Assembly: GCF_905475395.1 (NCBI RefSeq)
Contig: NC_058337.1
Location: 132,887,960 to 132,951,959, forward strand
Reading direction: 5' to 3'
DNA length: 64,000 nt
From: Chrysoperla carnea
Lineage: Eukaryota; Arthropoda; Insecta; Neuroptera; Chrysopidae
Within the stretch, counting starts at the first letter, position 1, and every line of letters starts with the position of its first letter. Both the position numbers and the translations under genes were made by a program. The notes beneath the pieces were generated by a model that was not told the origin of the DNA, ran no database searches, and worked only from the letters and a program-made list of their open reading frames with translations. Of the stretch, positions 3,987 to 63,311 are shown piece after piece.

Positions 3987-4580
3987 TATGGCACGCCATT
4001 TTACTATTTAATAGGCTAATTTTTATAGAGAAAAAAATTAATTAATTATTTTTTTTCAATCAGAAATTTTATATTTTATATTTTATATTTTATATTTTGT
4101 AAAATAAATCTTAAAAGTTTCTTTGTAAAAGAGAGATTGATATAAGATAAGATGAGAAAAGAGAGATGAGAATTAAAATTATGATGATAACATAATAAAA
4201 ATGTATTATTATTATTATGTTATCATCATAATAAAAATGTATTATTATTATGATGATACATAATAATAAATCAGTTAATTTTATTTGAATTAGATTTAAA
4301 AAAAAATGATTGAATTAAAATTATGTACATAATGGAAATAGAGAATTAAAATTATGTACATAATAAAAATGATTGAATTAAAATTATGTACATAATGGAA
4401 ATATATGGCACGCCGTTTTACTATTTAATATGAATTAAAATTATGTACATAATAAAAATGATTGAATTAAAATTATGTACATAATGAAAATGATTATTAT
4501 TATGATGATAACATAATAATAATGTATTATTATTACGATCATTTTTTTTCGGACATTAAATAGTAAAATGGCGTGCCATA
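3987..4580 (+). mobile_element. TIR MITE with 6-bp target duplication, copy 1
   Basis: Bounded by an inverted repeat beginning TATGGCACGCCATTTTACTA (26 bp or more) and flanked by GAGATG at 3981-3986 and 4581-4586. The interior is a low-complexity mosaic of ATTATGTACATAAT blocks, (ATTTT)n-like and (ATT)n runs, and inverted ATGATGATAACATAAT segments. An extra internal copy of the terminal repeat lies near 4406-4431. The near-identical partner at 25526-26154 is inverted relative to this one and has its own 6-bp duplication (AAAATA). No coding capacity is seen. A 6-bp duplication does not fit the common mariner (TA), piggyBac (TTAA) or hAT (8 bp) classes. Confidence 0.85.
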
Positions 4581-6720: not shown

Positions 6721-7092
6721 TAAAATCACCTAATTGACGTAAAAGGTAAGATAGAGTTCGTAAATTAGCACCATAGGTCAATTGGGTCTTGGGTTGGATC
6801 TCTAGGATCGGTAGGACTCATCTTGTAAGCCATTAGAGATAGAACAAAAGTTTAAATGCAAAAAATGTTCGTTAAATAAAAAATAAACAACTTTTGTTTG
6901 AAATATTTTTTCGTAAGGCGCAAATTAGGTTCGAGAACATATAGTATGTATACACTCATTGTATTTGTCTGTAAGAGGAGTGGACATCTTTCTTTACTTA
7001 CGTGACGTAAACAAATGAACAATTGTATAATCTACACAATCTATACATGATATTTCAACAATTAACTCAGTCAATTGTTTGTTTTCACTTGT
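6721..7092 (-). mobile_element. HINE/mini-me-like element, copy 2 (3'-truncated)
   Basis: Runs from about 'aaaatcacctaattgacg' through the conserved middle ('cataggtcaattgggtcttg', 'gttagagatagaacaaaag' blocks) to the ACAAGTG end, read here as acttgt at 7087-7092. The terminal hairpin and the GTCY microsatellite of full copies are missing. Confidence 0.7.
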
Positions 7093-9500
7093 TTTTTAAT
7101 AAACTTATCAATGACGGTTATTGGTTTATAGAAAAAACATTAAATAAGAATTTAACTGTTTTCAATTACTATAACTTTTTGAAAAACAATGCTTTTTTAA
7201 TACAAGCCACAAAAGGTACTGAACTACACAAACAATCGCGAAAATGTGGCGATTAAGTTGACGTGTACGCTTCTTGGTGCCTAGTGTTTTTTTTTGTCTC
7301 GGGTAAAAATAAATATCATTTCAAGCGAAGCCGGGAAAAAGCAAAGAGATGGCAGGTAAGACGTCACAAGTGTCACATTCACAGCCTCGATACACACTCA
7401 ATTTCATGCTACGTCGCAAGAGTCTAATAATTAGCCGTTGATAAAAAAGAACTGGACAAGAAGCTTTAAACGTGTGTCTGTAGCATTTGGCATTTGGAAA
7501 ATCTTCTTTTCCATTTGAAGATAATCATTTTCTTTTCTAGATATGTTGGAGTCTGATGTTATAGAGACGTTGGGAAGATTAAAAAAAAGTTGAGTAAAAT
7601 CCAAATATTCTTACTTGAACTTTCATAAGCTCAATGTAAAAACATTCATTATTTTGCTGCCGAAGATCAAATACAAACTTCAGAAGACTTGGAGGGCCAA
7701 TAGATCATCGTGATCGTTGAGATTTCCGCACTCCAAAATTTAATCGAATGAAATAAACGAAATAAGGAAAAAAAAGCATCTTTTTAATCATTCCCTATAA
7801 AACATATACGTTGTTTGAACGCGTTGTTTTTGCATTAAAATCACCTAGGGGAGATTTTTACAGAGAGATTACTTTTGTGTAGTCATTTTTTTCTTTTAAA
7901 TAACAATACAAAATTCTTTACAATCTTATTTTTATTTTTTTTTTTAAAGATAATAATGATAACAAATTTGTTATTAAATTTAATGATATTGAAAGGAATT
8001 CTCTTTTTAAGCAATAAAAAATTCAAATTTATTTTAATAATTTATTTAATTTTTATTTACTTCGATATGGCACGAAGTACCATATTTAAGTTACGGGAAT
8101 ATTGCCGGAAATTTTTGGTAATACATCGTAATCATTATACTGACATCGATTTAAAGAAAGATGTTAGAATGTGAAGTGCATGTTATTCAATACTTTTCTG
8201 AAAATCGTAAATAAATCCTTTGGAATTGTAACTTTTTTTCATATTGATATCAATCCATTAAGGTTACCAAGCCTGTTTCGAATTTACTTTGACCAAAGTC
8301 ATCTTAAAAATATCCGCAATTCTTTTTCAGATATGGTGTTCCATACTCGAAAATTTTTCAACAAAGTTACGCATTATTTTATACCAAATTATTAAGAAGT
8401 AAAGCTATTTCCTAAGACCTTGTGTAGTGTTACAAGATTTTACAAAAAAATTTCAACCAAATTTTTTCTTATAGTTTTTGATCCGTAACAGTTCAGCTCA
8501 CACCTGGAAACTTCTGGGATATATTAAAAGCTATTAAAAAAAAGGAATCGGTCGGATAGAACTTTGCAAGTAATCGAGAATTAGTTTAGAGAAAAACGCG
8601 TTTTAAGTTTGAGAGACAATTCCGACAGAGTAACTCGAATAATAATAGTTAACTCACTTTGGATTAATCAGCGATCCCAGAGTTACTGACAAGAACAAAT
8701 CCCCAAGTCGTCCGTCAACATTATGCCGCGTCAAAAATCCACTGTAGCTCCGAAAATAAGCCGTATTTTGAAAAATCCGTTTAAGGACATATTCTTAAGA
8801 GTCTAAACTTTGAAAATATGGTAATAAAAGATCGATTTTATCAAAGTTCTAAACTAGAATACCGCCTTTAAGTATAATTTATTACCACTAAAGTTTAAGT
8901 CATGATAAGATAACTTAAAATTTCCGTTTTAGTACAGTTACTTGAGTTTCAACGAGTTTCAAATTAATTTAAATAAATTTTTTTTATTTACATTTTGCAT
9001 AAAATATTACCCTAAATAATTGTACCACATAATATTTTCAACAACAACAACAACAAAATTTTATAAATTGAATAATTAATTATTATCCAAAAAGTTTTAA
9101 AGTTATTACTGTGCTCTAAAATTTATAAAACCAAAAATTAATTAATAGCAGCAGAGTAACTAAACTATGTATATGTAGTATACACTTGTATGGCTGTTTG
9201 TCATGGTTGCTTGGAATGAGCTAACTGTTTAAGAAGAGAAGTACTCTTGGCTGCTTGCTGTATTAAAATATTCGTAATTTTGTCTTAATTAAAATAATTG
9301 AAGTATAATTTTAATTTAAAATATGTTTGTTGTATATATTATCATATATATATATTGTATGCATACATAGAAGTTATATACAGTGTGTTTAAAAAGTATG
9401 AAACCCTCTCCGAAGTGAGATGTTAAAAGTCAAGTAAATAAATGAGTTGAAGAATTTAAAAAAATAAACAAATATGTGTATAAAAAACTAAAAAACACGA
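7093..9500. other. AT-rich intergenic, nothing recognised
   Basis: Includes ORFs at 7875-8174 and 8171-8395 made mainly of F/I/L/N/K residues, as expected from translating AT-rich DNA. I found no domain, signal peptide with matching downstream exon, or RNA gene. Confidence 0.5.
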
Positions 9501-10962: not shown

Positions 10963-10966
10963 TTAA

Positions 10967-11315
10967 GGAGGGTCCCTCACCAGTAATAGAAAAAATAAAT
11001 TAGTAGAAAATGATAAAAATTTTTAGTATGTTGTAGTTAACGATACATATTAAATAAAAAAAAAAATTTGGGTATCTTATCGATCAATTAAAAGAGTAAT
11101 TAATTAATTCAAAATACACTAAATAACATAGCATGATATGAGGATATGATTGTTATTTAGTGTATTTTTAATTAATTAATTACTCTCTTAATTGATCGAT
11201 AAGATACCCAAATTTTTTTTTGATTTAATAATATGTATCGTTAACTACAACATACTAAAAATTTGGATCATTTTCTACTAATTTATTTTTTTCTATTACT
11301 GGTGAGGGAACTTCC
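10967..11315. mobile_element. Near-perfect foldback MITE flanked by TTAA
   Basis: Two inverted arms of about 162 and 165 bp (10967-11128 and 11151-11315) are almost identical and separated by a 22-bp loop. TTAA occurs immediately outside both ends (10963-10966 and 11316-11319), the duplication typical of piggyBac and Kolobok transposons. The ends read GGAGGGTCCCTCACC and, inverted, GGAAGTTCCCTCACC. High arm identity suggests a recent insertion or gene conversion. It has no coding capacity. Confidence 0.8.
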
Positions 11316-11319
11316 TTAA

Positions 11320-15589: not shown

Positions 15590-16315
15590 GTTGATAATGT
15601 AAAATTTTATTATGTTCTATCACATCCAAATTTGGGCCAGTTTTGATAAACCAAGTAAGTAATTCTACTAAATTTGGGTCATAATTTTCAAATTTAAGAT
15701 CAAAATTAACCTAGCTCTAATAGTTTTCTAGAATGTGGTGAGTGTCCTTGTCCCCGAATTATGCAAACAAGGGATAGGTAGCGAAAAACTGACATCACAG
15801 CTGAAAAGAATGGCCCAAAATTAGTGGGTTTCAAAAAAAAATTCCAGTAAGATCGGATCAAATTTGCCTGTGTTATCAAAAAAATTGAATTTTTTATCTT
15901 TATGACGTCATCAAAATCCGAAAAAATTAATTTTGCTCTATCACACCCAATTTTTATCGAATTTCGATAAACCAAGTATGTAATCCTACTAAATTTGAGC
16001 CATACTTTTCAAATTTGTGATCAAAATTAACTTAGCTCTAATAGATCTCAAGAATGTTGTGTCTTGGTCCCGCAATTAAGCAAATAAGTGAAAGCTAGCG
16101 AAAAACTGACATCACAGCTGAAAAGAATGGCCCAAAATTAGTGGGTTTGAAAAAAAATTCCAGTAAGATCGGATCAAATTTGCTTGTGCTATCAAAAAAA
16201 TTGAATTTTTTTACTTTATGATGTCATCAAAATCAAAAAAATTAATTGATTTTGCTCTATCCCATCCAAATTTTATGCAATTTTGATAAACCAAGTATGT
16301 AATCCTACTAAAGTT
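15590..16315 (+). repeat. Satellite-like tandem array 2, ~316-bp unit
   Basis: About 2.3 units related to array 1 at 660-1350: 'cctactaaattt'-type text recurs near 15663, 15985 and 16303, and 'ttgaattttt' blocks near 15885 and 16200. TGACGTCA is at 15903-15910 and becomes TGATGTCA in the next unit. It begins about 80 bp past the poly(A) signal of the H4 variant. The minus ORF at 15706-15975 is a by-product of the repeat. Confidence 0.75.
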
Positions 16316-16955
16316 ATTTCGGAGTTCGGAGAATTCTCTATAGTATTTTTTTTCTACAAATAATATTTATAATATTGTAACTTAATTAGCGCCTTTTACA
16401 TGATTCGTTAATAACTTTTTTGGTTTACGTACAAAACATACGTTTTGTTTTGCGCCTCGATTTCTGTTGCGCCGATGGCAGGGGCTTCCTGTGACACGGT
16501 CTAGTTACGGACCTGTTAATTTATTTGATTTTAAGATGCACATAAGATTATCCACATATTCTTGTCCTTCGATTAGTTACCAGATTTCTTCTCTTATACA
16601 TACCCTTATAAATAAACGTCATATGTGTTATATTTTGTTTTGTTTATATAAATACCCTGCAGTGTATTTAACAAAATGTTCATCTTACAAGTTTTAGTAG
16701 GTAAGTATCATCTTAGAAGTTAGATAGTGAGTAAGGATTACCCATCTACCCACGTATGTAGATACCAATTAGTGGTTGAATAATTTTATGTATCTAATAA
16801 TATTGTTATGTATATAAATTTGTATTATATATAATTAAGTTTAAATGCATTTACGTTTATATAATTATAATTCTTTGATGTTAGGTTGAAAGGTATCAAG
16901 TCAAAATTGTTGAAAATTTCAAGATTTGTTTCAGTTAAAAATTTTTTTTTCAAAA
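16316..16955. other. Intergenic, possible unproven first exon
   Basis: Near 16676 a short ATG stretch (about eight codons, hydrophobic start MFILQVLV) runs into a GTAAGT donor-like sequence, and TATATAAATA lies at 16645. The TATA-to-ATG spacing leaves no room for a leader and I found no matching acceptor exon, so no gene is called. Otherwise nothing is recognised. Confidence 0.35.
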
Positions 16956-17570
16956 TTATATCATCTATAGATGTAATATATATCAAGGTATACTAAGTTT
17001 AGTCCCAAGTTTGTTACGCTTAAAAATATTGATGCTACGAACAAATTTCTGGTATAGGTGTTCATAAAATCACCTAATAAGTCCACTTTCTGTCCTGTCA
17101 GTGGACACGATAACTCAAAAACGAAATGAAATATCAAGCTGAAATTTTTAAAGCGATGCTCAGTACGTAAAAAAGTTGAGTCAAAGTTCATAAATGAGCA
17201 ACACAGGCCAATTTAGTCTTGGGTCCATAGGACTCATCTTTTAAACCGTTAGAGATAGAACAAAAATTTATATGTAAAAAATGTTTCTTATAAAAAAAAT
17301 TAACAACTTGTAATGTTATTTCGTAAAAGTCACTGTTTATCCGTGAGGGCGCAAATTTGGACAAAACTTTAGTGTCCGTTTTCTCCAAAACTATAAAACA
17401 AAAAGAAATTTTTCGAAAACTAATTAAACGGCAGTCGAAAGGCTGCCATAATTGTGTTGGTTTTTTAAACTCTTCTCATTTATAAAGAAACAATGTAAAC
17501 ACTAATATTAAACATTTTCTATACAGGGTATTTCAACAATTAACTCAGTCAATTGTTTGTTTGCACTTCT
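16956..17570 (-). mobile_element. HINE/mini-me-like element, copy 3
   Basis: Starts with a diverged terminal hairpin (atatcatctatagatgtaat region), then the family core ('gtttagtcccaagtttgt', 'aaaaatattgatgctacga', 'gataactcaaaaacga' blocks), and ends in a diverged ACAAGTG end (gcacttct). The central GTCY microsatellite is reduced to a short 'tgtcctgtca' remnant. Two minus ORFs (16961-17191, 17188-17388) are products of the repeat. Confidence 0.7.
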
Positions 17571-18450
17571 TTTCATATTAATTTTGTTTAGTCCGTCAGT
17601 TTTAGTCGCGTTACATAGATTTATTATTCTTTAACTTTGTAAACATACTCTTTGCATAATTTTATATAAATTAATTGTTTGATGCACTGGCTAATTAAAA
17701 ATAATATTAAAGCAGAGAAATAATCCAACTAATGTCACCGTAATTATATCCCCTGTTCTTTATTAATTTACTGAGTTTGAATTGAATGAAACACGAACAA
17801 GCACGAAAAATTACGAAGTTTAAATTTTTTTGCTTACACATTTTCTCTCGTGATGAAATTTCTCACAATTTCTAAAAGACTGGGTCAAAAATACTATTTT
17901 AAAAACTGTAGATAAATTCATAATTCAAAAATTGATAAAATTATATGAAGATATAGAAAAAGTTTCAACTTCATATACCATTTAAAAAAAAACAATTATT
18001 TATGTTTGAAATCAAGTGTAGAAAATGCGTCGAATAGTTTTCCCAGCATTATAGAAATAGACATAGCCTTCTTATCTAAAAAAATTCCCCATTTTCACGT
18101 ACTCCAACCCCTTTATACCTGACTTAGAGATACAACATTAATTTGTAGGTTGATTAAATTTTCGTAATAATTTCAGTAAACATACATAGTTTGATATGGT
18201 TAGAGGTACCTTATACAGTTATAACATGTATGTTATATTATATACATATAGACAACACCAACCAATGTTATATGCTTTGATAATGTTATATTAGCATATT
18301 ATAATAATATGTTGTTGAGAACAGTAACGTATTACTTAACTATTTAATTAAATACCTGTAAACGTCATAGAATATTGTGAATCATTCTTAGAATTAGGTC
18401 ATATACAGTCTTAAATTAAATACCGTAAGTTAATGAGTCATTGTTGCAGT
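17571..18450. other. AT-rich intergenic, nothing recognised
   Basis: No supported gene, RNA or clear repeat. Confidence 0.55.
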
Positions 18451-25525: not shown

Positions 25526-26154
25526 TATGGCACGCCATTTTACTATTTAATGTCCGAAAAAAAATTATCGTAATAATAATACATTATTATTATGTTATCA
25601 TCATAATAATAATCATTTTCATTATGTACATAATTTTAATTCAATCATTTTTATTATGTACATAATTTTAATTCATATTAAATAGTAAAACGGCGTGCCA
25701 TATATTTCCATTATGTACATAATTTTAATTCAATCATTTTTATTATGTACATAATTTCAATTCTCTATTTCCATTATGTACATAATTTTAATTCAATCAT
25801 TTTTATTATGTACATAATTTTAATTCTCTATTTCCATTATGTACATAATTTTAATTCAATCATTTTTTTAAAATCTAATTCAAATAAAATTAACTGATTT
25901 ATTATTATGTATCATCATAATAATAATACATTTTTATTATGATGATAACATAATAATAATACATTTTTATTATGTTATCATCATAATTTTAATTCTCATC
26001 TCTCTTTTCTCATCTTATATCAATCTCTCTTTTAGTAAGATTTATTTTACAAAATATAAAATATAAAATATAAAATTTCTGATTGAAAAAAAAAATTAAT
26101 TAATTTTTGTCTCGATAAAAATTAGCCTATTAAATAGTAAAATGGCGTGCCATA
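25526..26154 (-). mobile_element. TIR MITE with 6-bp target duplication, copy 2
   Basis: Inverted relative to the copy at 3987-4580, with the same TATGGCACGCCATTTTACTA termini. AAAATA flanks both ends (25520-25525 and 26155-26160). It contains several ATTATGTACATAATTTTAAT units and an internal terminal-repeat copy near 25678-25704. Both copies have their own, different duplication, so they are independent insertions. Confidence 0.85.
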
Positions 26155-29506: not shown

Positions 29507-30898
29507 CGTAAAAAAGTCGTACGTACAACACGAATAAATACTAACTCGACTAACTCATTATTTCCATTGGTAGTGCTATATACGATTGTTTAAAAATATA
29601 CTTTATGTTCTATGCCCTCTATTATTGATACTTCTATTAAAACTCTGTATAGAATCGATGATAAAAAGTTTAAATTTCTTCGAATGATATTAAAATCAGC
29701 TAAACAAAGTGTATTGCAAGTTTCCAATTGATTTTGATTCCTGATGTTCTAAAAACTTAAACGCTGCGATCAAAAGTCTCGCCAGACTCAAAGACCAAAG
29801 AAAAAACATAATTGTGACTCAAATTACTTGGGAGCTGTCGTTATCTGACATAAACTATTAGAACAATTGAGATTTTTCCCCAAAGTTTGAAAAATTTCAC
29901 GAAAAACTGTAGGGAATACGTGGAGTACTTTAAAGTAAGATAGGTTTTGGAGATTCGTGTGTTGAATTTATCTTTCGATGTATCAACTTTGGGCAATTAT
30001 TTTCAAACCGTCCCCAATTTGACATCCATGACCAAAATTTGAGCCAAGGTTGTTAAACTGAGGCCAGGTTGATTAACCAATGCTGGCCCTGCCTCGTTTC
30101 CAATAACAGATTTGTAGATACTATTTGAATATTTTGAAATGTTTGGTTTTTTTAAATTACCAATTTTGTTGGACACTAAGTCCGTGCTAGGATACAGTTC
30201 TTCCAAGAAAAAAATATGTGAAACTATCTGTGAACTACTCGCTCCGCTGGACAACTTCAATTTTAAATTCAAAGATTATTGTATTATATCCTTTACTTTA
30301 TATGCCGCCAATTACCCTCCTTTTGTTCACAATTTTTCTAACCAATAAAATTATCAGTGTTTCTCTACTATATTTTGCGTCTCTAGTAGTTTTAAAGTTC
30401 TAAGCATACATAAAGACATAGGGGCAGACATCGGTAAGCGAATTTGTTTTATCCTATGTATTGAAGAAAATCTCTGGGGAAAAATATTCAACCCGATTAT
30501 GTTAGGTTGATCTTGGTTATCTATGTAAGCCTTGCTTTTTTATTAGGCCAATAGATAATTCTCAAAATATAAAATCTACGTGAATAATGGAAGTAACGAT
30601 TTCCTTTAGTGATTTTTATACGAATATATTTATATATGACTACAATTCGTTTCCAAACCATATAACAGTTTCAATAAACCAAAATTGAATGAGCAAAAAG
30701 TGAAACTTTTTTTTTATATTTATATTTTAACACATTTCATGGATATTTTTTAAACATTATTTGAATTATGTGTCTTTTTTTTTGTCTGTAAACAATGTTT
30801 CTCCATTCAAACATTATTAGCTTCTGTATTATTTGATTTTATTTTTCAAGTTCATAGGTACCTCTGGACTACGTTTGTCAGAAAAATACATAAAATTA
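29141..30898. other. AT-rich intergenic with microsatellite
   Basis: Holds the (TA)n run listed separately. ORFs at 30003-30272 (minus), 30139-30348 and 30218-30403 (plus) overlap each other in different frames and match nothing I recognise. Confidence 0.45.
29427..29503. repeat. (TA)n microsatellite
   Basis: About 38 uninterrupted TA/AT dinucleotides. Confidence 0.95.
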
Positions 30899-31479: not shown

Positions 31480-32130
31480 TTAGATTAGTGAAAATAACTT
31501 TGATGGGAAACATTCGATTTGTTCATTCAATAGAATGTTGGGTCTTTTTTTATGTTTATGGATTTCCAAACCTTCCAACACATCCAGTCTTTGACCTTTT
31601 TTTGCTATGTGCAGTATTTCTAGCTTACTGTTTGGAATGTGATCATTTTCTATCAGGTGGTTGGCAAAAGCCGAATCTGTTCTTTTTAACCTGAAAGAGC
31701 GTAGGTGTTCTGCTTTTCGAATTTCAAACGATCGACCTGATTGTCCAACGTAGCTAGCATCACATTGGGCACAAGAAAGTTTGTACACACCTGATCTGTG
31801 TTTTTTGTCAATTTTGTCTTTATTATTGATAATCAGGTTGCCCAATTTTAGTGGTGGTTTGAAAGCTGTGTTAATGTCTTGATTTTTAAGAATATTGGAG
31901 ACCCTCTCGGATGACTCACCAAAATAGGTAATGACTTTGAAATTTTCTTTGGTTAAAAGTTTTTGATGTGGAAATACCGTGTTTAAAGTTATTTTTCGCC
32001 TTCTTTTACGTAACAAGTAATCCACCCTGTTCGGATCATAACCATTATTAATAGCAATGGTTTTAATTGTGCTAATTTCTTCCATAAAATTGGATTTTGA
32101 TAATGGTATTTGTAACGCTCTGTTTACCAT
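31480..32130 (-). pseudogene. PLE C-terminal part with GIY-YIG endonuclease domain
   Basis: Continues the RT reading frame after one in-frame stop. The domain starts at about residue 115 of this segment: GVYKL...SYVG is the GIY-YIG pair, with a CAQC (CX2C) between them as in PLE endonucleases, followed by 'QSGRSFEIRKAEH' and an FANHL helix. The endonuclease would nick target DNA to prime reverse transcription. The start used here is only the first ATG after the stop, not a real initiation site. Confidence 0.9.
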
Positions 32131-32136
32131 TGATTG

Positions 32137-33087
32137 TTAAGCAGCCAATTTATGGTTAATGGGATGAACCGAGTCTGAGTGGATCGTTGTGTCCGTGAAA
32201 GTAGGCTTACGGTAGATGTTGAAATCCAATTTGTTCTTTGTTTTTTTGATGTTCAAATCCAGAAAATTTAATTGGTCCTCACATTCAATTTCTAAGGTGA
32301 ATTGAATTTTCTTACTGAAAGAGTTAGCCATGTCCAAGAAAGTCTCCAATTGTCTTTGTGTACCATCAAAGCATATGATGATGTCATCCACATAGCGATA
32401 CCAAAACTTGATGTGCTGGGTGGCTTTGTGAGCAGTTAATATTTTCGTTTCGAAAGCGTCCATAAACAACTCAGCAAGAAATGGACTGAGTGGGGAACCC
32501 ATAGCGAGGCCAGATGTTTGTTTGTACACTTTTTTGTTGAAAGAGAAGTAATTTTGTCCCAAAATAATTCTTAGCATGTTTGCTAGTTCAGAAATTATTA
32601 AGGGATTGACATTTTTTTGTTCCAATCTCTCTTCAACAATTGTTATACATTCACTAGCTGGTATGTTTCCATACATGTTCGTTATGTCTAGTGACGCCAG
32701 TTTGTATGTATTATTGAATTTGAATTTATCGAGTCTCCCAATTAAGTCTAAGGAGTCCTTTATATGGTCATTTGATAGATTTATTTTGTTTCTCAAAAAC
32801 ACGTTTAAAAACTTTGATAACTTGTAGTTTGGACAGTCAATATATGAAACCACAGGTCTTATTGGTAAGTCATCTTTGTGTATTTTTATGAGCCCATAAA
32901 GTACAGGTGATCTTGGATTCATTTCTGCCATGTTCAGTTTCTCCAAGTTACTCAAAACAGCGGTCGAATTTTTAATGCAATTTTTAATTTCTTTTTGGAA
33001 TTTGTTTGTGGGGTCCTTAGATACTCTTTGAATTTTTTCTTTATGAAAAAAGTCACCAACTTTATTGATGTAATCTTGTTTTTTCAT
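32137..33087 (-). pseudogene. PLE reverse transcriptase core
   Basis: RT motifs are in order: 'SLDITNMYGNIP' (motif A, catalytic Asp), 'GLAMGSPLSPFLAELFMD' (motif B), 'YVDDIIICF' (motif C, catalytic Asp pair) and 'LNFLDL' (motif D/E region). Upstream in the same frame, just before the first ATG, is the PLE-typical VTKADKGNSIVIM. The frame ends in TAA at 32137-32139, two codons before the in-frame continuation (31480-32130); related elements read through here. Catalytic residues are intact. Confidence 0.92.
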
Positions 33088-33125
33088 TATTACTATCGAA
33101 TTGCCTTTATCCGCTTTTGTGACAG

Positions 33126-33353
33126 TTATGTTAATTTGTGTTCATCAATTTTTTTGTTGATTTCTTTAATTGTATTGGTATCGGTTGTTTTGTTGTAGAT
33201 CGGGATATTAGTTAGTTCTTTTTTTATTAATTCCACTGTCAGAGAGTCTTTATGGTTTTTGAGCGCAAGTTCTGAGTCTACAATTAAATTTTCAACTTGC
33301 TTATGAAATTTTATTTTTGGTGTGTATTTGGGTCCTTTGTTCAGTATCTCCAT
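33126..33353 (-). pseudogene. PLE N-terminal/linker segment
   Basis: In frame with the segment 33381-33809 across a TAA at 33381-33383. It contains 'LNKGPKYTPK', a block typical just N-terminal to PLE RT domains. At its 3' end the reading frame shifts by one nucleotide relative to the RT segment (near 33125-33135), consistent with a one-base deletion in an A-rich run. Confidence 0.75.
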
Positions 33354-33380
33354 TTCTTTGTTATTGAAGACAACATCCGT

Positions 33381-33850
33381 TTATAAGATGGTTCGTTTTC
33401 CAAAAACGAAGTTGGTTTTGGGTTGATGTTTTTGTGTTGGATGATTGAGCTCACAAAGTTTTTCGAGTTTCTTCTTTTGTGCCAAGTATTTCGAACGGAT
33501 TTTAGTATTCACTTCCCGTTGTATTTGAAATGTTAATTGATCAAATTCCAAAGGATGTAGTTTGGAACCAAGCTCGGTGTGTAAAATTTTTAAATAAATA
33601 AAAATATTATTTCGTTTGATGAACCATGACCGAGATTCTTCTTTTACCCAGATTAATTTTGCAGCATTTAAGGCCTTTGTCGATGCTATGCTATTTGTCT
33701 TTGTTTTCAATTGAACGTATTTTGGAATAACTTTTCTTCTCAGACATTCTTGGTTGAACCATATGTTCTGGGAACATTTTCGTGATTTGAGTTTCAGCCT
33801 GTAGTACAATCTTTTTTGCTCCGATAAATTCGTCGTAATTATTCATTGAG
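33381..33850 (-). pseudogene. PLE N-terminal segment
   Basis: Open from a TGA near 33850 to a TAA at 33381. No ATG is required: the segment merely continues the element's ORF, and there is no ATG near its beginning. It is Lys-rich, with predicted helical KLxxL-type sequence (AQKKKLEKLCEL), as in other PLE N-terminal regions. Confidence 0.65.
33832..33843. repeat. Target-site duplication of PLE, right
   Basis: GTCGTAATTATT, identical to 31055-31066. Confidence 0.85.
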
Positions 33851-35462: not shown

Positions 35463-35760
35463 GTATTTTTGCTAGATTTTCTATTATTTTTCTTTCGTAT
35501 CTATTCCAAACTTTTTTAAATAAGTGTACGTATATGTATAAAGTGTCGTAATGTCGTGATCGTCAGCGTTCTTTCCATAAAAATAGTTAGTTTAAGAAGA
35601 TGATGGTACGTGACACAAAGCTATTGACTGTATAGAATTAGTTTTTTTCTTATATTTTATTTAGTTTATATATGTACTTTGTACATGTGCTTGTTGGTAT
35701 AAAGCTACTTAACTTTCTACAGCTATAAGCAGGTACATTGATACTATACAGGTATATTTT

Positions 35761-36315
35761 TATACCATGCATATATGAAATATACATAGTATATTAAGTT
35801 TCGTCCCAAGTCTGTAACGCTTAAAAATATTGATGCTACAAACAATATTTTGGTATAGGTAGTCATAGAATCACCTAATTAGTCCATTTCCGGTTGTCCG
35901 TCCGTCCGTCCGTCTGCGGACACGATAACTCAAAAACGAAAAAAGATATCAAGCTGAAATTTTTACAGCGTACTCAGGTTGTAAAAAGTGAGGTCATGTT
36001 TGTAAATGAGCATCATAGGTCAATTGGGTCTTGGGTCCGTTGGACCCATCTTGTAAACCGTTAGAGGTAGAACAAAAGTTTAAATGTAAAAAATGTTCGT
36101 TATCAAAAATTAAACAACTTTTGTTTGAAACATTTTTTCGTAAACATCACTGTTTACCCGTGAGGACGCCAATTAGGCGGAATATGTACTATACTTGATT
36201 AATTATCAGTTATGTATGTGTCACATGTTTGTATGTGTAATGTGATAAAGAAATCAACACTGACTATGCATGGTATTTCAACAATTAACTCAGTCAAATG
36301 TTTGTTTTCACTTGT
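35761..36315 (-). mobile_element. HINE/mini-me-like element, copy 4 (full)
   Basis: Full copy with the terminal hairpin (ATACCATGCATATATGAAAT...ATAGTAT), a GTCCGTCCGTCCGTC microsatellite near 35896-35914, the conserved core and the ACTTGT end. A good reference copy for the family. Confidence 0.85.
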
Positions 36316-37494
36316 TTTCATAATTTAATTGCACATCATCGAAAATAATTCTACAGATAAATTTCAAAATCCTTGTTGAGATTCTTCTTCCCACATTGGC
36401 AAACATTTACGCAAACATGGTCGTAAGAATCCGCTTGTCAATGTGTCGACAAATCTGAGAAGTTAGGACCGTGATTGTTGGTTCTATTTAACAAATGATT
36501 GTGTACTTGATAATTGAGTCAATTAGAAAAAGTTATTTGAAAAACTTTTAATAATAACTGAAAAAGGAGACACCTAGATGTTAGATAAATTCTGAAAATT
36601 TTCTATTGAAATTTATGTTTGCATTCAATTTCAGATAAGGTTAAGAATTACATGAAGTTTACCCTAATTTAAAGAGGATTTATTTTCCTGTTCAAAAGAA
36701 ATTGAAAAACAACTGAAAATTTTTGTAATCCAAAAAGCTTTTATTGATTTGCATTAAATGCATTTAGTATAATTAATTGTTTTTTGACATGTAATTTGGT
36801 ATCTGAAACAATACAAAACTATTCCATTAAATAATTAATGAACAAAATACTACTGCAGTAGTATTTTTAATGTTAATAAGAGACTCCAAACGACCTATAT
36901 ATACACCATGGTTTGCTTTCAAACCTTTAATAGCTTTAAAAACATCTAAAAGAAAATTAATAACGAGATTATTTGGATCTTTTGAATTCTAGCTCAATTT
37001 TTATTTGTAAATTTAAAAATCTTGGCCTGGCATCTTCATTCAAATGTTTGTTTTCACCTTGGTTCTTAAGTTAGTTTTCACCTTCTCTCTTAAGTTCTAG
37101 ACAGATATAACAGATTCTTATAAGTGTTGAATTTGGAATGGATCTCATCTATGATAATTTCGTCGTTGTGACGGTAAGATCCCGGCGAAACGATATGCTT
37201 CGGAAGTGCAAAATTGATAATATATAGAAGTAATAATCAATAATAAAATAGAGTATTTTTTTTTTAAATTTATAATATTAAAACAAAACGAGATATAACT
37301 AATATTTCATTACGATTTGGTTTTTGGTTGTATTCATTGAAATATGTATGTAATGTGATGGTACAATGTATGAGTGATTCTGATATCTGATTTAAAATTA
37401 TTTGTATAGTTATTCAATGTTAAAATTTAACTACATATTATTTTAAAAATAGAGTGTGTCATCTATCTATTGTGGCTACAAAAGAAAATAAAAA
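36316..37494. other. AT-rich intergenic, nothing recognised
   Basis: Nothing recognised in this interval between HINE copies 4 and 5. Confidence 0.5.
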
Positions 37495-38032
37495 ACAAGT
37501 GAAAACAAAGAATTGACTGAGTTAATTATTGAAATACCATGCATAGTCAGTTTTGATTTCTTTATCACATTACACATTCAAAGATGTGACACATACATAA
37601 CTGATAATCAAGTATAGTACATATTATAAAATTTCCGCCTAATTGGCATCCTCACGGGTAAACAGTGATGTTTACGAAAAAATGTTTCAAACAAAAGTTG
37701 ATTTTTGATTAGTTAATTTTTGATAAGGAACATTTTTTACATTTAAACTTTTGTTCTATCTCTAACGGTTTACAAGATGGGTCCTACGGACCCAAGACCC
37801 AATTGGCCTATGATGCTCATTTACGAACTTGACCTCACTTTTTACGTCCTAAGTACGCTGTAAAAATTTCAGCTCGATATCTATGACAAAATTTTTTTCC
37901 TAGCATCATTATTTTTAAGCGTTACAAACTTGGGACTAAACTTAATATACTATGTATATTTCATATATACATGGTATAAAAACTTGGGACTAAACTTTAT
38001 ATACTATGTATATTTCATATATACATGGTATA
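37495..38032 (+). mobile_element. HINE/mini-me-like element, copy 5 with duplicated 3' terminus
   Basis: Starts ACAAGTGAAAACAAAG and reaches the usual hairpin end CATGGTAT at 37977. It is followed at once by a second copy of the last ~55 bp (37978-38032) including the hairpin. The microsatellite segment is deleted ('gatatct' runs into 'atgacaaaat'). Confidence 0.8.
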
Positions 38033-41094
<3,062 letters not shown>

Positions 41095-42891: not shown

Positions 42892-43393
42892 ATTAACGCT
42901 TAAAAATATTGATGCTACGAACAAAATTTTGGTAAAGGTGTTCATTAAATCATCTAGTTAGTCCGGTTGTCTGTCTGTCTGTACGTAAACAAGATAACTC
43001 AAAAACGAAAAGATATATCAGGCTGAAATTTTTGTAGCGTGCTCACGACGTTAAAGTGAGTTTAAGATCGTAAATGAGCAACATAGGTCAATTTCATCTT
43101 AGGTCCGTTAGACTCATCTTATAAACCGTTCGAGATAGGACAACAGTTTAAATGTAAAAAAATATTTCTTATTTAAAAATTAACAACTATTGTTTGAAAT
43201 ATTTTTTCGTAAACATTACTGTTATAAGGGAATATCAGTTATGTGTGTGTGATACCACAGTCGTGCAATACATACATGACTGTCTATCTTAGATTGACTT
43301 ACATAACGTAAAAAGACAAACGATTGCATAATCAAGACTGTCTAAACATGCTATTTCAACTATTAACTCAGTCAATTGTTTGTTTTCACTTGT
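42892..43393 (-). mobile_element. HINE/mini-me-like element, copy 7 (hairpin end missing)
   Basis: Begins at the 'aacgcttaaaaatattgatg' block, so the terminal hairpin is lost. It contains 'gtctgtctgtctgtacg' near 42966-42984 and ends in CACTTGT. It lies 6 bp from copy 8 in the same orientation. Confidence 0.75.
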
Positions 43394-43399
43394 ATTATT

Positions 43400-43913
43400 A
43401 TACCATGCATATATGTAATATGCAAGGTATACTAAATTTAGTCCCAAGTTTGTAACGCTTAAAAATATTGATGCTACGCTCAAAATTTTGCTATATGTGT
43501 TCATAGAATCACCTAATTAGTCCATTTCCGGTTGTCCGTCCGTCCGTCCGTGGACACGATAACTCAAAAACGAAAAAAGATATCGAGCTGAATCATAGGT
43601 CAATTGGGTCTTGGGTCCGTAGGACTCATCTTGTAAACCGTTAGAGATAGAACAAAAGTTTAATTGTAAAAAATTTTCCTTATCAAATAAACAACTTTTG
43701 TTTGATACATTTTTTCGTAAACATCACTGTTTACCCGTGAGGGCGCCAATTAGGTAGAAATTTTATAGTATGTACTATACTTGAATATCAGTTATGTATC
43801 TATGTGTCACATGCATGTATGTGTTATGTGATAAAGAAATCAACACTGATTATGCATGGTATTTCAACAATTAACTTTTTTTTTTGGTAAGTCATTTGTT
43901 TGTTTTCACTTGT
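43400..43913 (-). mobile_element. HINE/mini-me-like element, copy 8
   Basis: Has the terminal hairpin (ATACCATGCATATATGTAAT), GTCCGTCCGTCCGTCCG near 43534-43552, an internal deletion around 'gagctgaatcataggtcaat' and a T-rich insertion near 43875-43890 that breaks the conserved 5' end. The ORF at 43289-43504 (minus) is a by-product. Confidence 0.8.
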
Positions 43914-50621: not shown

Positions 50622-51762
50622 CTAGAGTGATACTCACCCGCTTCGCTGGGTTTAAAAGTAAAGATTGATAAAGATTGCTCTCGTTTATACCCTTTCTATA
50701 ACACTCGAAATAATGGTAAGGATTGTTTTACACAGGTAAAATATATGTATGGTTTTTTATTTTTTTAAATGTATGATAGTAACAAGTGAAAACAAACAAT
50801 TGACTGAGTTAATTGTTGAAATACCATGCATAGTCAGTGTTGATCACATAACTCATACAAACATGTGACACATATATAACTAATAAAGTACAGTACATAT
50901 GTAAATGACTTTATAGGTTTCTGCATTACCGACCGACATTTAGTGTATAGTTTGTACACATATTATAAAATTTCCGCCTAATTGGCGCCCTCACGGGTAA
51001 ACAGTGATGTTTACGAAAAAATGTTTCAAACAAAAGTTGTTTAATTTTTGATAAGGAACATTTTTTACAATTAAACTTTTGTTCTATCTCTAACGGTTTA
51101 CAAGATGGGTCCTACGGACCCAAGACCCGATTGGCCTATGATGCTCATTAACGAACTTGACCTCACTTTTTACGTCCTGAGTACGCTGTAAAAATTTCAA
51201 AATTTCAAAATTTCAGCTCGATATCTTTTTTCGTTTTTGAGTTATCGTGTCCACAGACGGACGGACGGACGGACGGGCGGACGGACGGACGGACGGACGG
51301 ACAACCGGAAATGGACTAATTAGGTGATTCTATGAACACCTATGACAAAATTTTTTTCCTAGCATCATTATTTTTAAGCGTTACAAACTTAGGACTAAAC
51401 TTAATATACTATGTATATTTCATATATATGCATGGTATAATTATTCATTGAGTATATCAGTGAAGATGGCCGTGAAATATTTTAAATTGACTATTTTTAC
51501 AAAAATCTGTAATTTATGGTAATGTCAAATGACTACTTTAACAGATTATAATTTATGGTAATGTCATATTCAATTTTTTATATTTTTTATTAATATATCT
51601 TTATAAATTATATCTCATGTGTTATTCTGATAGATATATCAGCTATATTGCTGTACAGTTTCATTAAAAACCATTCGCTAGTTTTAGCGTGAAAACGTAA
51701 CAAACAAACAAACAAATAAACAAACATGCTTACTTTCGCATTTAAATTTTTAGAAATAGAGA
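50622..51762 (-). mobile_element. Helitron copy 3, interrupted by HINE copy 9
   Basis: On the minus strand it ends with the hairpin ACCCAGCGAAGCGGGTGAGT followed by CTAG|T (50622-50625, flanking A at 50621). Its 5' end is near 51762 (A|TCTCTATTTC). The left part (50622-50780) matches 30899-31060 and the right part (51439-51740) matches 33836-34140. The interruption lies at essentially the same internal position as the PLE insertion of copy 2. It is non-autonomous. The minus ORF at 51608-51847 is a by-product. Confidence 0.75.
50782..51438 (+). mobile_element. HINE/mini-me-like element, copy 9 (full, nested)
   Basis: Full length, with both ends and the longest microsatellite of the family (about 12 GACG units, 51254-51302, one GGGC variant). 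No target duplication is seen at its ends, in keeping with rolling-circle-type insertion. Confidence 0.85.
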
Positions 51763-52849
51763 TAGAGATAAGTAATATTTTGGGGTAATTTAATTTTTCA
51801 GTTGATTTCATTTCAACTGAAAAAAATTGTTTACCAATTTTTTTCAATAGTGTTAATACGTCTGTACTAACAATTATAAATTCGTATTAATATACACCTA
51901 TTTAAACTTTTCGGACTAAACTTATCTAAAGGTAACTGGCTACTATATAGTAATTGATATTCTAGTAGCTAATACCTAATTGATGTACACCTATCTAGTA
52001 TGTTAGTTTTAAGTACATAGATAAATGTTAGTTAATATACATAAAGTTACTGCTGCATATATAGTTCTGTTATTAAAACATTAAATAGAACATACTGAAA
52101 TTCAATCAATAGTCCAGAGGATAAAGAATACAATCAACAAGAATTTCTAGCGACAAAATTCTAATCTTTGAACACGTAAGGTATTTCTAATAATATGAGA
52201 AAAGAACGCGGTATCTTAGAAAAAGAAAAAATGTAATTTCCGTAATGTAGTTGTATTAGCACATTCAATCTGTCAACGCTACAATCAATACTATCATATA
52301 TTGCTCCTCTTTATACACAGTGCAATTGTCACAGAAAGCAGGTAAATCTTCTGGATTAAATATTTGTCAAAAAGTAACCTCTGTTCATTGTTTTTTCGAA
52401 GACTAAACGATCAATTACATCCTAATTTGACTAAAAGCATTCCTAACTTGTTTATTTACAAACTAGTTTTGTTTATAAAGTTACTTTCTTTTTGCAAAAA
52501 CTCGAACTACTGGAATTGTTCAAATTGTCTTCTAGATAGTATGGATTCTTATTCTTTATAAGATCAATATTGGCAGCTTTGAAAATTTGTATAGCAATTA
52601 ACAGACCTTCAATAGTCCTAAACATTTTTTACAAATACCTAAACAATATTTTCCTTGTTTTCTATAATATCAAAACGATAAAAATAAAAACTTAACAATA
52701 TATCGCGATAAATCCTAATATTATCGATGCAACAAGTCCGGAAAACAATTATTTGGTAAGTATTGGTTTTAGTTGAGAAAATTCAAGAAAATGTTAAATA
52801 ATTTTTAAATCGCTAGCAATAAGAGAGAGTCTTTATAATAATAATAGAA
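51763..52849. other. AT-rich intergenic, nothing recognised
   Basis: The ORF at 52364-52561 has no ATG context or domain. Confidence 0.5.
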
Positions 52850-57817: not shown

Positions 57818-58609
57818 TAAGTAAACTTACATCTTTTGTACTTTTGAAGTATGACGAACGGTTTTCCTGAAATTTTAATCTTTTTATAATATACCAGATT
57901 TAATTTATAGAGGCAGAACTTTTTTACTTTAAGTTGACGATTGTTTAAGTTAGCTCTTCCAACTTTTTGAATCGTTATATCCCAGAAACGGTGACTCTTA
58001 GGAAAAAAATATTCAGACATTTTTATATTTAATTATCTGATCTCTACAATTTTCATCTGAGCTAATTTTGTGATAAAACTTGCCATTTTGTTGAAAATCA
58101 CGAAAAACTTGTTTTTGTGACATTTGACTTCGCTTAATTTTTTTCCACATCTCAGATCGATGAGAACTTTTTAGATTTCATTTAAGATGGCATTTTGATC
58201 AATCTCACCAAATTTCAGCCGTGTACGAATTTTTGTACCTTCGGATGTTTAAATTGACCGACTAAACTAGAGAAAAACAGTATATATTTCATACAGGTGA
58301 AAAACCGAATGGTTATTAAATAAAACTTAAATAAATCTTTGTTAATCTATATATATAAAAAGAGAGTGTTTGTTTGTATGTCCCCGATTTTCCCTAAAAC
58401 TAACCATTGACCTTCGGTAGGGGATTATGTCATTGGGTAGCCCTTAGGCTTCCATTGTGAATAAGGGAGTTTGGTGGGGGTGGAATTAAAAATGATCTAG
58501 GAATTCATAGAAAATAGATTAAAAAAATAGTTCTAATAATTTTCAATAGATGGCGCCACTGTCAATAGTACAATTTTCACTGGATGGCGCTACTGGCGCA
58601 AATGTCTTT

Positions 58610-59130
58610 CGATTTTTCTCGAAAATTCTGGAATGTTCCATGGATTTCTATCGAATTTTCTAGAATTTTCTCGAACATTCTGGAATGTTCTATGGATTTC
58701 TATCGAATTTTCTAGAACTTTCTCGAATATTCTCGAATGTTGTATGGATTTTTATTCAATTTTCTCAAACTTTCTCGAACAATCTGGAATGTTCCATGGG
58801 TTTCTGTCGAATTTTCTAGAATTTTCTCGAACATTCTGGAATGTTCTATGGATTTCTATCGAATTTTCTAGAATTTAGAACTTTCTCGAATATTCTCGAA
58901 TGTTGTATGGATTTTTATTCAATTTTCTCAAACTTTCTCGAACAATCTGGAATGTTCCATGGGTTTCTGTCGAATTTTCTAGAATTTTCTCGAACATTCT
59001 GGAATGTTCTATGGATTTCTATCGAATTTTCTAGAATTTTCTCGAACATTCTGGAATGTTCTATGGATTTCTATCGAATTTTCTAGAACTTTATCGAATA
59101 TTCTGGAATGTTCCATGGGTTTCTATCGAT
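58610..59130 (+). promoter_or_regulatory. Ten 52-bp repeats of heat-shock-element (HSE) pentamers
   Basis: The period is 52 bp (attctgg at 58625 and 58677, and so on). At 58651-58690 the text reads in 10-bp blocks tcGAAttTTC, taGAAttTTC, tcGAAcaTTC, tgGAAtgTTC: eight contiguous alternating nGAAn/nTTCn pentamers, all perfect. The second unit has seven of eight; several later units are equally complete (58807-58846, 59023-59062) and others have 1-3 mismatches. Three or more pentamers are enough for trimeric HSF binding. The ORFs at 58633-58878, 58841-59086 and 59004-59258 are translations of this repeat and not genes. Confidence 0.8.
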
Positions 59131-59188
59131 CTTTCCCTTACTTTCCCGTACACACAGAGAGTGTAGACATAATATTGGGATCGGTAAA

Positions 59189-59236
59189 AAATTCGATAGA
59201 AATCCATAGAACATTCCAGAATGTTCGAGAAAGTTC
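59189..59236 (-). promoter_or_regulatory. Isolated inverted HSE unit
   Basis: GAAcaTTCcaGAAtgTTCgaGAAagTTC: six perfect alternating pentamers, the inverse of the array unit, lying outside the main array but inside the Helitron. Confidence 0.7.
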
Positions 59237-59736
59237 ATTTAACAATTTTGATATTTAAATGTGCAAATACAACCCAGCGAAGCGGGTTTAACAGCTAGTA
59301 AAACAATAAAATGAAATATATATAATGTGGTTTAAGCAAATAATGAGGATAAATTGTGTATAAACGTTGTCAGTTTAATAAAAGCTTTATACGAACAAAC
59401 ACAAGACCATCCAAGAACCCTTTTTTTACTGTTTTTAAATTAACTCCAGATTAAACACTGTAAGATTAACGTTTAAAAACGTACGCATTGAATGTACAGT
59501 TAATTTTTTATATTTGATGAAATGTTTTGAGAGTGAAAAGATCCATTTGTTTCCAATGGGACCATTACGAAGAAATAAGAATATCCTATTTAAGGGAAAC
59601 GTCAATTAAATCAGATCACACACAAATCTAACCAATCTCAGAGAAAAATAAATATAAAAAAAAACATTATTATACTTTTTAATTCAGTTAGGCTTACGCT
59701 TTTTATTCAGTTTAGGCTTCTTCATCATCTATTTTT

Positions 59737-60264
59737 ATACCATACATATATGTAATATGCAAGGTATACTAAGTTTAATCCCAAGTTTGTAACGCTTAAA
59801 AATATTGATGCTACGAACAAAATTTTGGTATAGGTGTTCATAAAATCACCTAATTAGTCCATTTCCGGTTGTCCGTCCGTCTGTGGACACGATAACTCAA
59901 AAACGAAAGATATCAAGTTGAAATTTTTACAGCGTATTCAGGACGTAAAAAGGGAGGTCGAGTTCGTAAATGAGCAATATAAGTCAATTGGCTCTTGACC
60001 TATGGGTCCGTAGGACCCATCTTGTAAACCGTTAGAGATAGAACAAAAGTTGAATAACTGTTCCTTATAAAAAAATAAGCAACTTTTGTTTGAAACATTT
60101 TTTTGTAAACATCACTGTTTACCCGTGACGGCGCAAATTAGGCGTAAATTGTATAGTATGTATTATATAAATTGTATATGTATGTGCAATGTGATGTGAT
60201 GAGTAATCAACACTATGCATGGTATTTCAACAATTAATTCAGTCAATTGTTTGTTTTCACTTGT
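59737..60264 (-). mobile_element. HINE/mini-me-like element, copy 10 (full)
   Basis: Hairpin ATACCATACATATATGTAAT, a short GTCCGTCCGTCTG microsatellite near 59871-59883, the core and the CACTTGT end. Confidence 0.85.
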
Positions 60265-60910
60265 TTAATAAATTGAAATCACTTTTTGCTAAAATTTCAT
60301 GATCGAAGAAGTCTAGACGAAGAGATTAAGCTTCGGAAACCGTTTTACCATAATTCCTCGACCAATAGGAAAGTTTTTTCAAAAGGAGTTTTTATTTGGT
60401 AAAAAAACATAGGGATTTGCGAGCCTATTACTCATAACTTCACCAAATATCAACTTTAAAATCGAAAAAAAGTTATAACTAAATGTAAAAACGACTATTT
60501 TTCAAGTTTTCTCGGTATCTATGCAACCAAATCGGACTTACCAGACCTCAATCAATAGAATTTTATCGATTATCTTAGCCATTGATTAGCCGTAAACAAA
60601 AACATGTTTCTTACCTTATTTTCTTCTATAACACCGTATTTTTTGTTTTCTGATAGCAATTTTGTCTAATTTAACATAGATTCTCCTTCATAGATTCATT
60701 TGATTAGAATGTGAAGAAGTGTCTTTTATTTATAAAATCCGTAGTATTCTTTTAAACACGAAATCATTGAGAATTTTTTAAAGTTTTAAAAAGCACCCTG
60801 TAATATGTTAAACAAAAATGAGTTATTATTAAAAATTACTGGTTATTCGATTACTAACAAATTCATACTTAGGTTTGCCACCAAATTCCAAATTCATGCT
60901 GGAGAAGAAC
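60265..60910. other. AT-rich intergenic, nothing recognised
   Basis: No gene is supported. Confidence 0.5.
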
Positions 60911-61592: not shown

Positions 61593-62045
61593 TTTTTGTG
61601 ACTTTTTTTATGACTAATAGTGTCCTTGTTTTTGAATATAATGAATATAAAAATTAAACTATACAAAACTATATACAATGTATCATTAAATATTTTTTTT
61701 TATAAAACAAGTTCTGTTTCTCATAGATTAAAATTTTTTTTTTTTTAAATAATATTAAAACAGTATAAGCAATAAAACAGTAGATAATTTTTTTAACATA
61801 AATATTATATTTAATATTTTAGTATTATATTACATATTATATTCATATAATATATATTGTATGCCTTTTATACCATTTATCATTTATAGAGTCAACATTT
61901 CATACTTATAAATATAATAGATTATATTGTACAAATTAATCATTATAGAAAATTATATATAATGGGTAAGTGTGTATAACGTGATTATAAACGAATATAT
62001 AAGGGTTCGAATTAGTTGAACAATTTAGTCATAATTCGATTTAAA
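61593..62045. other. AT-rich intergenic, nothing recognised
   Basis: No gene is supported. Confidence 0.5.
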
Positions 62046-62618
62046 ACAAGTGAAAACAAACAATTGACTGAGTTAGTTGTTGAAATACCTTGTATAGACA
62101 GTATTGATGAAGCAATCGTTGGTTTTTTGACGTCACGTTAATTAAAAAAGATATCCACTTTTAAATAGCTGATACACACACTGATATTCCCATATTAATG
62201 CATACTATAAAATTTGCACCTAATAAGCGCCCTCGTGGGTAAACGTGATGTTTACAAAAAAATTTTTCAAACAAAAGTTGTTTATAAAGAACATTTTTTA
62301 CATTTAAACTTTTGTTCTATCTCTAACGGTTTACAAGATGGGTCCTACGGACCCAATTGACCCATATTGCTCATTTACGAACTCGACCTCAGTTTTTAGG
62401 TCCTGAGTACGCTATATATCTTGAGATATCTTGATATCTCTTTTCGTTTTTGAGTTATCGTGTCCACAGACGGACGGACGGACGGACAACCGGAAATGGA
62501 CTAATTAGGTGATTCAATGACCTATACCAAAATTTTTTTCGTAGCATGAATATTTTTAGGCGTTACAAACTTTGGACTAAACATAATATACTATGTATAT
62601 TTCATATATACATGGTAT
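62046..62618 (+). mobile_element. HINE/mini-me-like element, copy 12 (full)
   Basis: ACAAGTGAAAACAAACAATT start, 'gacggacggacggacg' near 62469-62484 and the terminal hairpin ending CATGGTAT. Well preserved. Confidence 0.85.
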
Positions 62619-63311
62619 AATAATGGAGATCGTTTTTTCATTGGATAGGACAAAAAAAAAGAATTTTACGTAAAAGAAGAACGAAGAGATCGTGAAAAAT
62701 CTATCCATTACCAAATTTCATACCCATATATATAGTCCACTAGTCCACATATACAATAGTCCACAAGCCCACGACTCAAAATTTACTATTGTTATTGTGT
62801 TCTTCATGCTCTGGTATTCTTTTCTTTCTGTCCATGCTTCGAACTGTAAGGTACCGGTTTTTTTGCTCAGACAGGTAATCGATTAATAAATGAGAAAACA
62901 TTTATATTGTAAAACTTTCCACATAACACGATCAATCAAAATTCATTGGCAAATTTTACGGTGTCACTCGACGCCTGGTTTTATAGAAGGCAGGGGGCTT
63001 ATTAACAGGCTTTTATTCGCTGTACTTGTAAATAACTAACAATGTTATAAAATCAAAGAAGTCAATTTTAACCTACTTTTAGTTGTCTGCTAATATTATT
63101 TTTATTAATTTAATAATATTATCTTAAAATATTAATTGTACTCAAAACAAAGAGATGTAGCTAGAGTGTCCGCTACTCATGTAAAAAGTATCGAAACTCA
63201 TCCTCGCTATTAAAATTTATTTTATTATATTTTGTTACTCAAAGAGTACACAATCTTTAACTTAACGAGACTAAAAAATAATAAAATAAATTAAAGTTTA
63301 AGAAATACGCC
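62619..63311. other. AT-rich intergenic, nothing recognised
   Basis: The ORF at 62692-62886 begins with an ATG and has a hydrophobic middle, but nothing supports it as a gene. Confidence 0.45.

Follow-up and report, generated by a model that had tools for sequence, protein, structure and literature searches.

The window, by which we mean the whole stretch of 64,000 nucleotides of Chrysoperla carnea DNA that was analysed, contains a 953-bp Helitron whose central part is a minisatellite built from heat-shock elements (HSEs) (Table 1). The 5' terminus of the element at 58346 is TCTATATATATA, with the TC start, and its 3' terminus at 59298 is AACAGCTAG, with CTAG at 59295-59298. At this one occupied site the junctions read ...TTAA/TC...CTAG/TAAAAC (slashes mark the junctions), with A on the left, T on the right and no target duplication. 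Canonical Helitrons are defined by a 5' TC, a 3' CTRR and insertion between A and T without target duplication (PMC4067079); for the palindrome, a length of 16-20 nt and a position about 11 nt from the 3' end were taken as the criterion. TC/CTRR termini, a 3' palindrome and an A-T site without target duplication are all found at 58346-59298, and by its ends the element is a canonical non-autonomous Helitron. The original prediction of a 953-bp Helitron with a TC start, a hairpin followed by CTAG and an A-T target agrees with both the ends and the flanks. The 3' hairpin (AACCC-A-GC/GAA/GC-GGGTT) comprises 18 nt with seven pairs and one bulge, and its folding z-score is just -0.97 to -1.50, which places its energy close to that of shuffled sequences.

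No ORF of at least 130 aa was found in the Helitron when ATG, GTG and TTG starts were listed, the stop-to-stop frames spanning the HSE array (112, 88 and 91 aa) look like by-products of the repeat, and no further copy of the 5' or 3' end is present within the window; the element is therefore regarded as non-autonomous. A search for translated copies with one ORF across the array returned 204 candidates, none of them at E<=0.001, and a second such ORF returned no candidate. The similarity of an array ORF to the Pfam family PHB_acc (20.1 bits, against a cut-off of 27) was likewise set aside as a by-product of repetition. In the viral contig collection (viral_contigs), neither end of the element (the 3' end taken in full) nor a linker-specific HSE pattern had an exact match, and looking for other copies in phages and plasmids gave no match. 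A relaxed 3'-end pattern matched one viral contig (L001), which lacks Helitron context at 1-2000, and this was taken as a chance occurrence in phage-like coding DNA.

Table 1. Coordinates of the Helitron, its HSE array and the dispersed repeat in the window.
Feature	Position	Strand	Basis or remark
Non-autonomous Helitron, 953 bp, TC...CTAG, between A and T	58346..59298	+	Ends; without coding evidence
Central minisatellite of HSE arrays, 52-bp period, 9.8 copies	58614..59129	+	Tandem Repeats Finder
Run of 5 alternating pentamers	58616..58638		Partial first unit
Run of 8 pentamers, perfect	58653..58690		
Run of 7 pentamers	58705..58737		
Second perfect run of 8 pentamers	58809..58846		
Runs of 3 (58861-58873) and 5 (58878-58900) pentamers	58861..58900		59-bp unit
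Third perfect run of 8 pentamers	58972..59009		
Fourth perfect run of 8 pentamers	59024..59061		
Runs of 3 (59076-59088) and 4 (59096-59113) pentamers	59076..59113		
Duplication within the array (58713-58876, 58876-59039)	58713..59039	+	Exact 164-bp match at offset 163
Inverted unit copy, run of 6 pentamers at 59209-59236	59185..59236	-	96% over 52 bp
3' hairpin, Helitron-type, 10 nt before the terminus	59271..59288	+	Folding
Copies of the ~0.6-kb repeat (approximate)	2401-2953, 6736-7098, 16955-17583, 35755-36328, 37488-38038		
Further copies of the ~0.6-kb repeat (approximate)	42893-43876, 50765-51442, 59724-60277, 62035-62630		

The array has ten unit starts (58640, 58692, 58744, 58796, 58848, 58907, 58959, 59011, 59063 and 59115), the unit at 58848 being 59 bp long and that at 59115 partial, and another partial unit lies ahead of 58640. 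Its consensus consists of eight contiguous pentamers, GAA-tt-TTC-ta-GAA-tt-TTC-tc-GAA-ca-TTC-tg-GAA-tg-TTC, and a short spacer. HSF trimers bind such GAA/TTC pentamers, of which the Helitron holds 65 within alternating runs of at least three; the runs have lengths of 5, 8, 7, 8, 3, 5, 8, 8, 3, 4 and 6 and can seat 17 non-overlapping three-pentamer (HSF trimer) sites. Three cores are lost in each of the units at 58744 and 58907, which are two copies of one unit type. In 22 of the 24 TTC-nn-GAA linkers a T follows directly after TTC, giving AGAA, the preferred HSF pentamer, on the opposite strand. The two halves of the internal duplication are identical over 164 bp, and the array has therefore been duplicated recently. 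The outline of the array had been predicted largely as found: about ten 52-bp repeats were expected, in accordance with the copy number in Table 1, whereas two coordinates need correction. The eight-pentamer unit placed at 58651-58690 is indeed perfect, but its cores occupy 58653-58690, and the unit placed at 59189-59236 is inverted and has six pentamers, but the run begins at 59209 and the copy at 59185.

The Helitron contains 43 three-pentamer HSE sites in 953 bp, compared with one in the other ~63 kb of the window, where the only run of three pentamers lies at 52777. The array accounts for 39 such sites, whereas 2000 dinucleotide shuffles of it contained 0.08 on average and never more than 4. 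When the unit is tandemised, the longest run is 8, as opposed to at most 4 in dinucleotide and single-base shuffles (50,000 each) and at most 5 when every GAA and TTC triplet is kept whole (0/50,000 reach 8). The comparison of pentamers with shuffled units, suggested along with the original prediction, hence yields for this copy a density and a run length that the shuffles never reach. As far as bases, dinucleotides and triplets are concerned, these shuffles also rule out the alternative raised at the same time, that the repeats resemble HSEs through their composition. High-density HSE clusters have been defined as more than 10 HSEs per 1 kb, using that paper's own HSE pattern (PMC6927752), and the 43 sites in 953 bp, counted as three-pentamer sites rather than by that pattern, exceed this density.

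The shuffles leave room for an array that may have originated by slippage from a 10-bp TTCnnGAAnn repeat. The closest competitor to an array of HSF-binding sites is accordingly a neutral minisatellite, in which such a repeat was expanded by slippage within the Helitron, the match to HSEs is accidental and any HSF binding is inconsequential; we consider this rather unlikely. Tandem arrays are common in Helitron-like elements, and internal ones are well documented in DINE-1/HINE and the oyster Cg_HINE (PMC4067079, PMC7492417). Neutral expansion would also fit the period of 10 that is detectable beneath the 52-bp period, as well as the pattern of variation between units. When eight units of five types from this one element are compared, leaving aside the inverted copy, the partial units and the unit of 59 bp, variation affects 5 of 24 columns in the cores and 6 of 16 in the linkers. 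The difference in conservation between cores and linkers is not significant (P=0.21, or P=0.27 with the spacer added), and therefore no core constraint is demonstrated between the 52-bp units. The consensus itself comprises four 10-bp sub-units, and these vary at linker positions only (P=0.033, post hoc).

The rule of eight alternating pentamers is satisfied by 11 loci in a 257-Gb prokaryotic collection and by three matches in viral contigs, two of which have identical sequence around the run. To our knowledge, eukaryotic HSF is absent from prokaryotes, and the occurrence of 10-bp TTCnnGAAnn repeats there favours a neutral origin. However, the prokaryotic loci are plain, near-homogeneous 10-bp tandem repeats: the first run uses one repeated TTC-nn-GAA linker in 11/11 and a single GAAnnTTC word in 8/11, whereas in the Helitron three linkers (TA, TC and TG) and three GAAnnTTC words alternate with the cores intact. 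Two phage-like contigs (L003:4004-4051 and L004:1103-1140) carry at least eight alternating GAA/TTC pentamers within long ORFs, with coding repeats such as NIPENSRKF and KIPENSGR. The linkers in these two runs are mixed too, and mixed linkers are therefore no proof of selection by HSF. A further point against a neutral minisatellite is that HelitronY4_CE of C. elegans, which has the same kind of array, is bound by HSF-1 (PMC6927752).

In Caenorhabditis, HSF-1 ChIP peaks, gain of Pol II and induction of nearby genes have been described at HSE-bearing Helitrons (Garrigues et al. 2019, PMC6927752), and HelitronY4_CE contributes 86 HSEs at col-52 (PMC6927752). The DNA-binding domains of C. elegans HSF-1 bind cooperatively to most tested HSEs, and the authors regard the tetrameric and pentameric sites among their probes as heat-inducible (PMC9148306). 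A survey of every UCSC genome in which Helitrons are annotated reported HSE enrichment in three Caenorhabditis species only, and its authors inferred that HSE-dense Helitrons may be confined to this genus (PMC6927752). Section 9 of that paper prints the HSE pattern of the survey outside C. elegans as NGAANNTCCNNGGAN, versus the usual nGAAnnTTCnnGAAn, possibly through a misprint; if it is not a misprint, arrays like the present one went uncounted and the negative outcome of the survey is less informative. Within the openly licensed PMC literature, reports of an HSE-packed Helitron layout were found from roundworms only, and an HSE-bearing insect Helitron was encountered neither in searches of that literature nor in the consulted passages of PMC13104882, PMC8896005 and PMC3071340, although one may be in print elsewhere.

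The 40-bp unit of HelitronY4_CE, as printed in PMC4039745, holds six pentamers in a row, or seven if the count continues across the unit junction. Both elements are Helitrons with an internal tandem array and a phased block of GAA/TTC pentamers in each unit, which bears out the parallel with Caenorhabditis HSE Helitrons drawn in the original prediction. They differ in that the present unit is 52 bp long, reaches a run of 8 and has another spacer. Both units contain ATTCTGGAATGTTC, but beyond the cores no homology above the null was found between them (205 of 2000 linker shuffles reach the score), in a comparison confined to the 40-bp unit of HelitronY4_CE, to the exclusion of its second repeat (15 bp) and the rest of that element. 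The two arrays resemble each other because both are HSE arrays, and with the similarity beyond the cores lying within the null, convergence would be a simpler reading than common descent. For the 40-bp unit compared, the predicted convergence with nematodes is thus favoured over shared ancestry on these alignments, though common descent could still apply.

Other mobile elements offer partial parallels. LTR elements of the ONSEN type are mobile and carry HSF sites; they are retrotransposons with these sites in the LTR and, unlike the present Helitron, are not known to have an HSE minisatellite. Central-repeat Helentrons (DINE-1/HINE, Cg_HINE) are likewise non-autonomous rolling-circle elements with tandem repeats in the centre, but they insert at TT, whereas the present element has an A-T insertion and a CTAG end; no mention of HSE content was found in the consulted passages of their descriptions, and the word 'heat' is absent from PMC7492417. 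In its insertion site, which is A-T and not TT, the element departs from the Helentron/DINE-1/HINE group. Insect Hel1 Helitrons (Csup_Hel1-like, PMC6544945), compared here by description, share the TC...CTRR ends and the 3' hairpin, and the consulted passages of that description mention no HSE array.

In Drosophila virilis, the 154-bp tandem repeats of Helitron-2 are transcribed and yield piRNAs (PMC12910113), and the present array could similarly be a transcribed repeat that feeds piRNA production. We regard this as improbable, since it would account for an array but not for HSE-grade content, and it is not exclusive of HSF binding to the same array. It is very improbable, on the other hand, that the array serves the DNA mechanics of the element, such as hairpins or rolling-circle replication, instead of HSF. 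The GAAnnTTC cores are palindromic, GAACATTCTGGAATGTTC is able to make a 7-bp stem, and the inverted unit is close to the 3' end, all of which would suit such a role. The eight-pentamer stretch, however, folds just modestly better than its shuffles (z -1.73; 10/200 equal it), and palindromy by itself requires neither the strict five-base phase nor GAA/TTC identity.

Our preferred reading, which we hold to be moderately probable, is that the element is a non-autonomous Helitron with an array of HSF-binding sites in its middle, and that putative HSF recruitment benefits the element first, with incidental effects on the host. It is supported by the 43 sites in 953 bp against one in ~63 kb, the four perfect runs of 8 and the shortfall of the shuffles, and further by the linker-only variation of the sub-units (P=0.033, post hoc), the T after TTC in 22 of 24 linkers and the Caenorhabditis precedent. 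Against it stand the single copy, the lack of significantly greater conservation of the cores (P=0.21), the unit type missing three cores and the phage-like coding runs of eight pentamers, which have mixed linkers where no HSF is expected. Upon heat shock, HSF trimers would bind cooperatively to the array, and the bound trimers would open chromatin and recruit polymerase. The likeliest beneficiary would be the element itself or an autonomous partner, through expression or access during stress, while any heat-inducibility that an insertion conferred on neighbouring genes would arise as a by-product, open to selection in the host. As a mobile element with a dense HSE array, the Helitron may therefore spread heat-responsiveness around the genome. 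More broadly, and more tentatively, it is possible that non-nematode Helitrons independently turned a central minisatellite into a platform for HSF, the family spreading heat-inducible enhancers within the genome of an insect and timing its own mobilisation by the heat-shock response. An HSE-dense Helitron with a different unit in a second phylum would mean that HSF recruitment by rolling-circle transposons is recurrent, and it would provide a second lineage in which to test whether stress regulators of the host are co-opted by transposons for their own mobilisation, with stress responses rewired along the way.

The region at 45-64 kb has ten stop-to-stop frames with a length of 75 aa or more, and six of these were scanned against Pfam, a procedure that short exons would escape; no host gene near the Helitron emerged from them, and therefore no regulated target can be named. 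Scans of the window with Rfam (gathering scores) and ARAGORN (bacterial code) gave no hits. In the self-comparison of the window, a single match to the Helitron outside its own limits reached E<=0.01: a 60-bp segment on the minus strand (29847-29906) that shares 72% identity with a portion of the HSE array (E 6.6e-05). A broken retroelement, presumably Penelope-like, occupies 31480-33809 on the minus strand; its ORF at 32137-33087 matches RVT_1 (E 3.9e-13), and the adjoining ORFs at 31480-32130 and 33381-33809 are without a Pfam match. Among the matches listed for its reverse transcriptase (120 of 1114), the organism-named ones are insects in 12/12 cases. This makes the insect host named in the original prediction probable, although retroelements are able to pass from one host to another.

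Several other repeats are found in the window. An interspersed family of ~0.6 kb occurs many times, in either orientation, its copies being about 74-98% alike where they match, and one copy begins about 430 bp to the right of the Helitron. The segments at 3987-4580 and 25526-26154 are inverted repeats, 85% identical and about 21 kb apart, both with AT-rich 31-33-bp minisatellites, and they could mark the two termini of a single, very large element. A self-complementary segment of 357 bp (10963-11319), 90% identical to its own reverse complement, is a possible fold-back element. Finally, 669-1363 and 15601-16312 are related to each other (about 79-86% alike), each consisting of about two copies of a ~320-bp tandem repeat.
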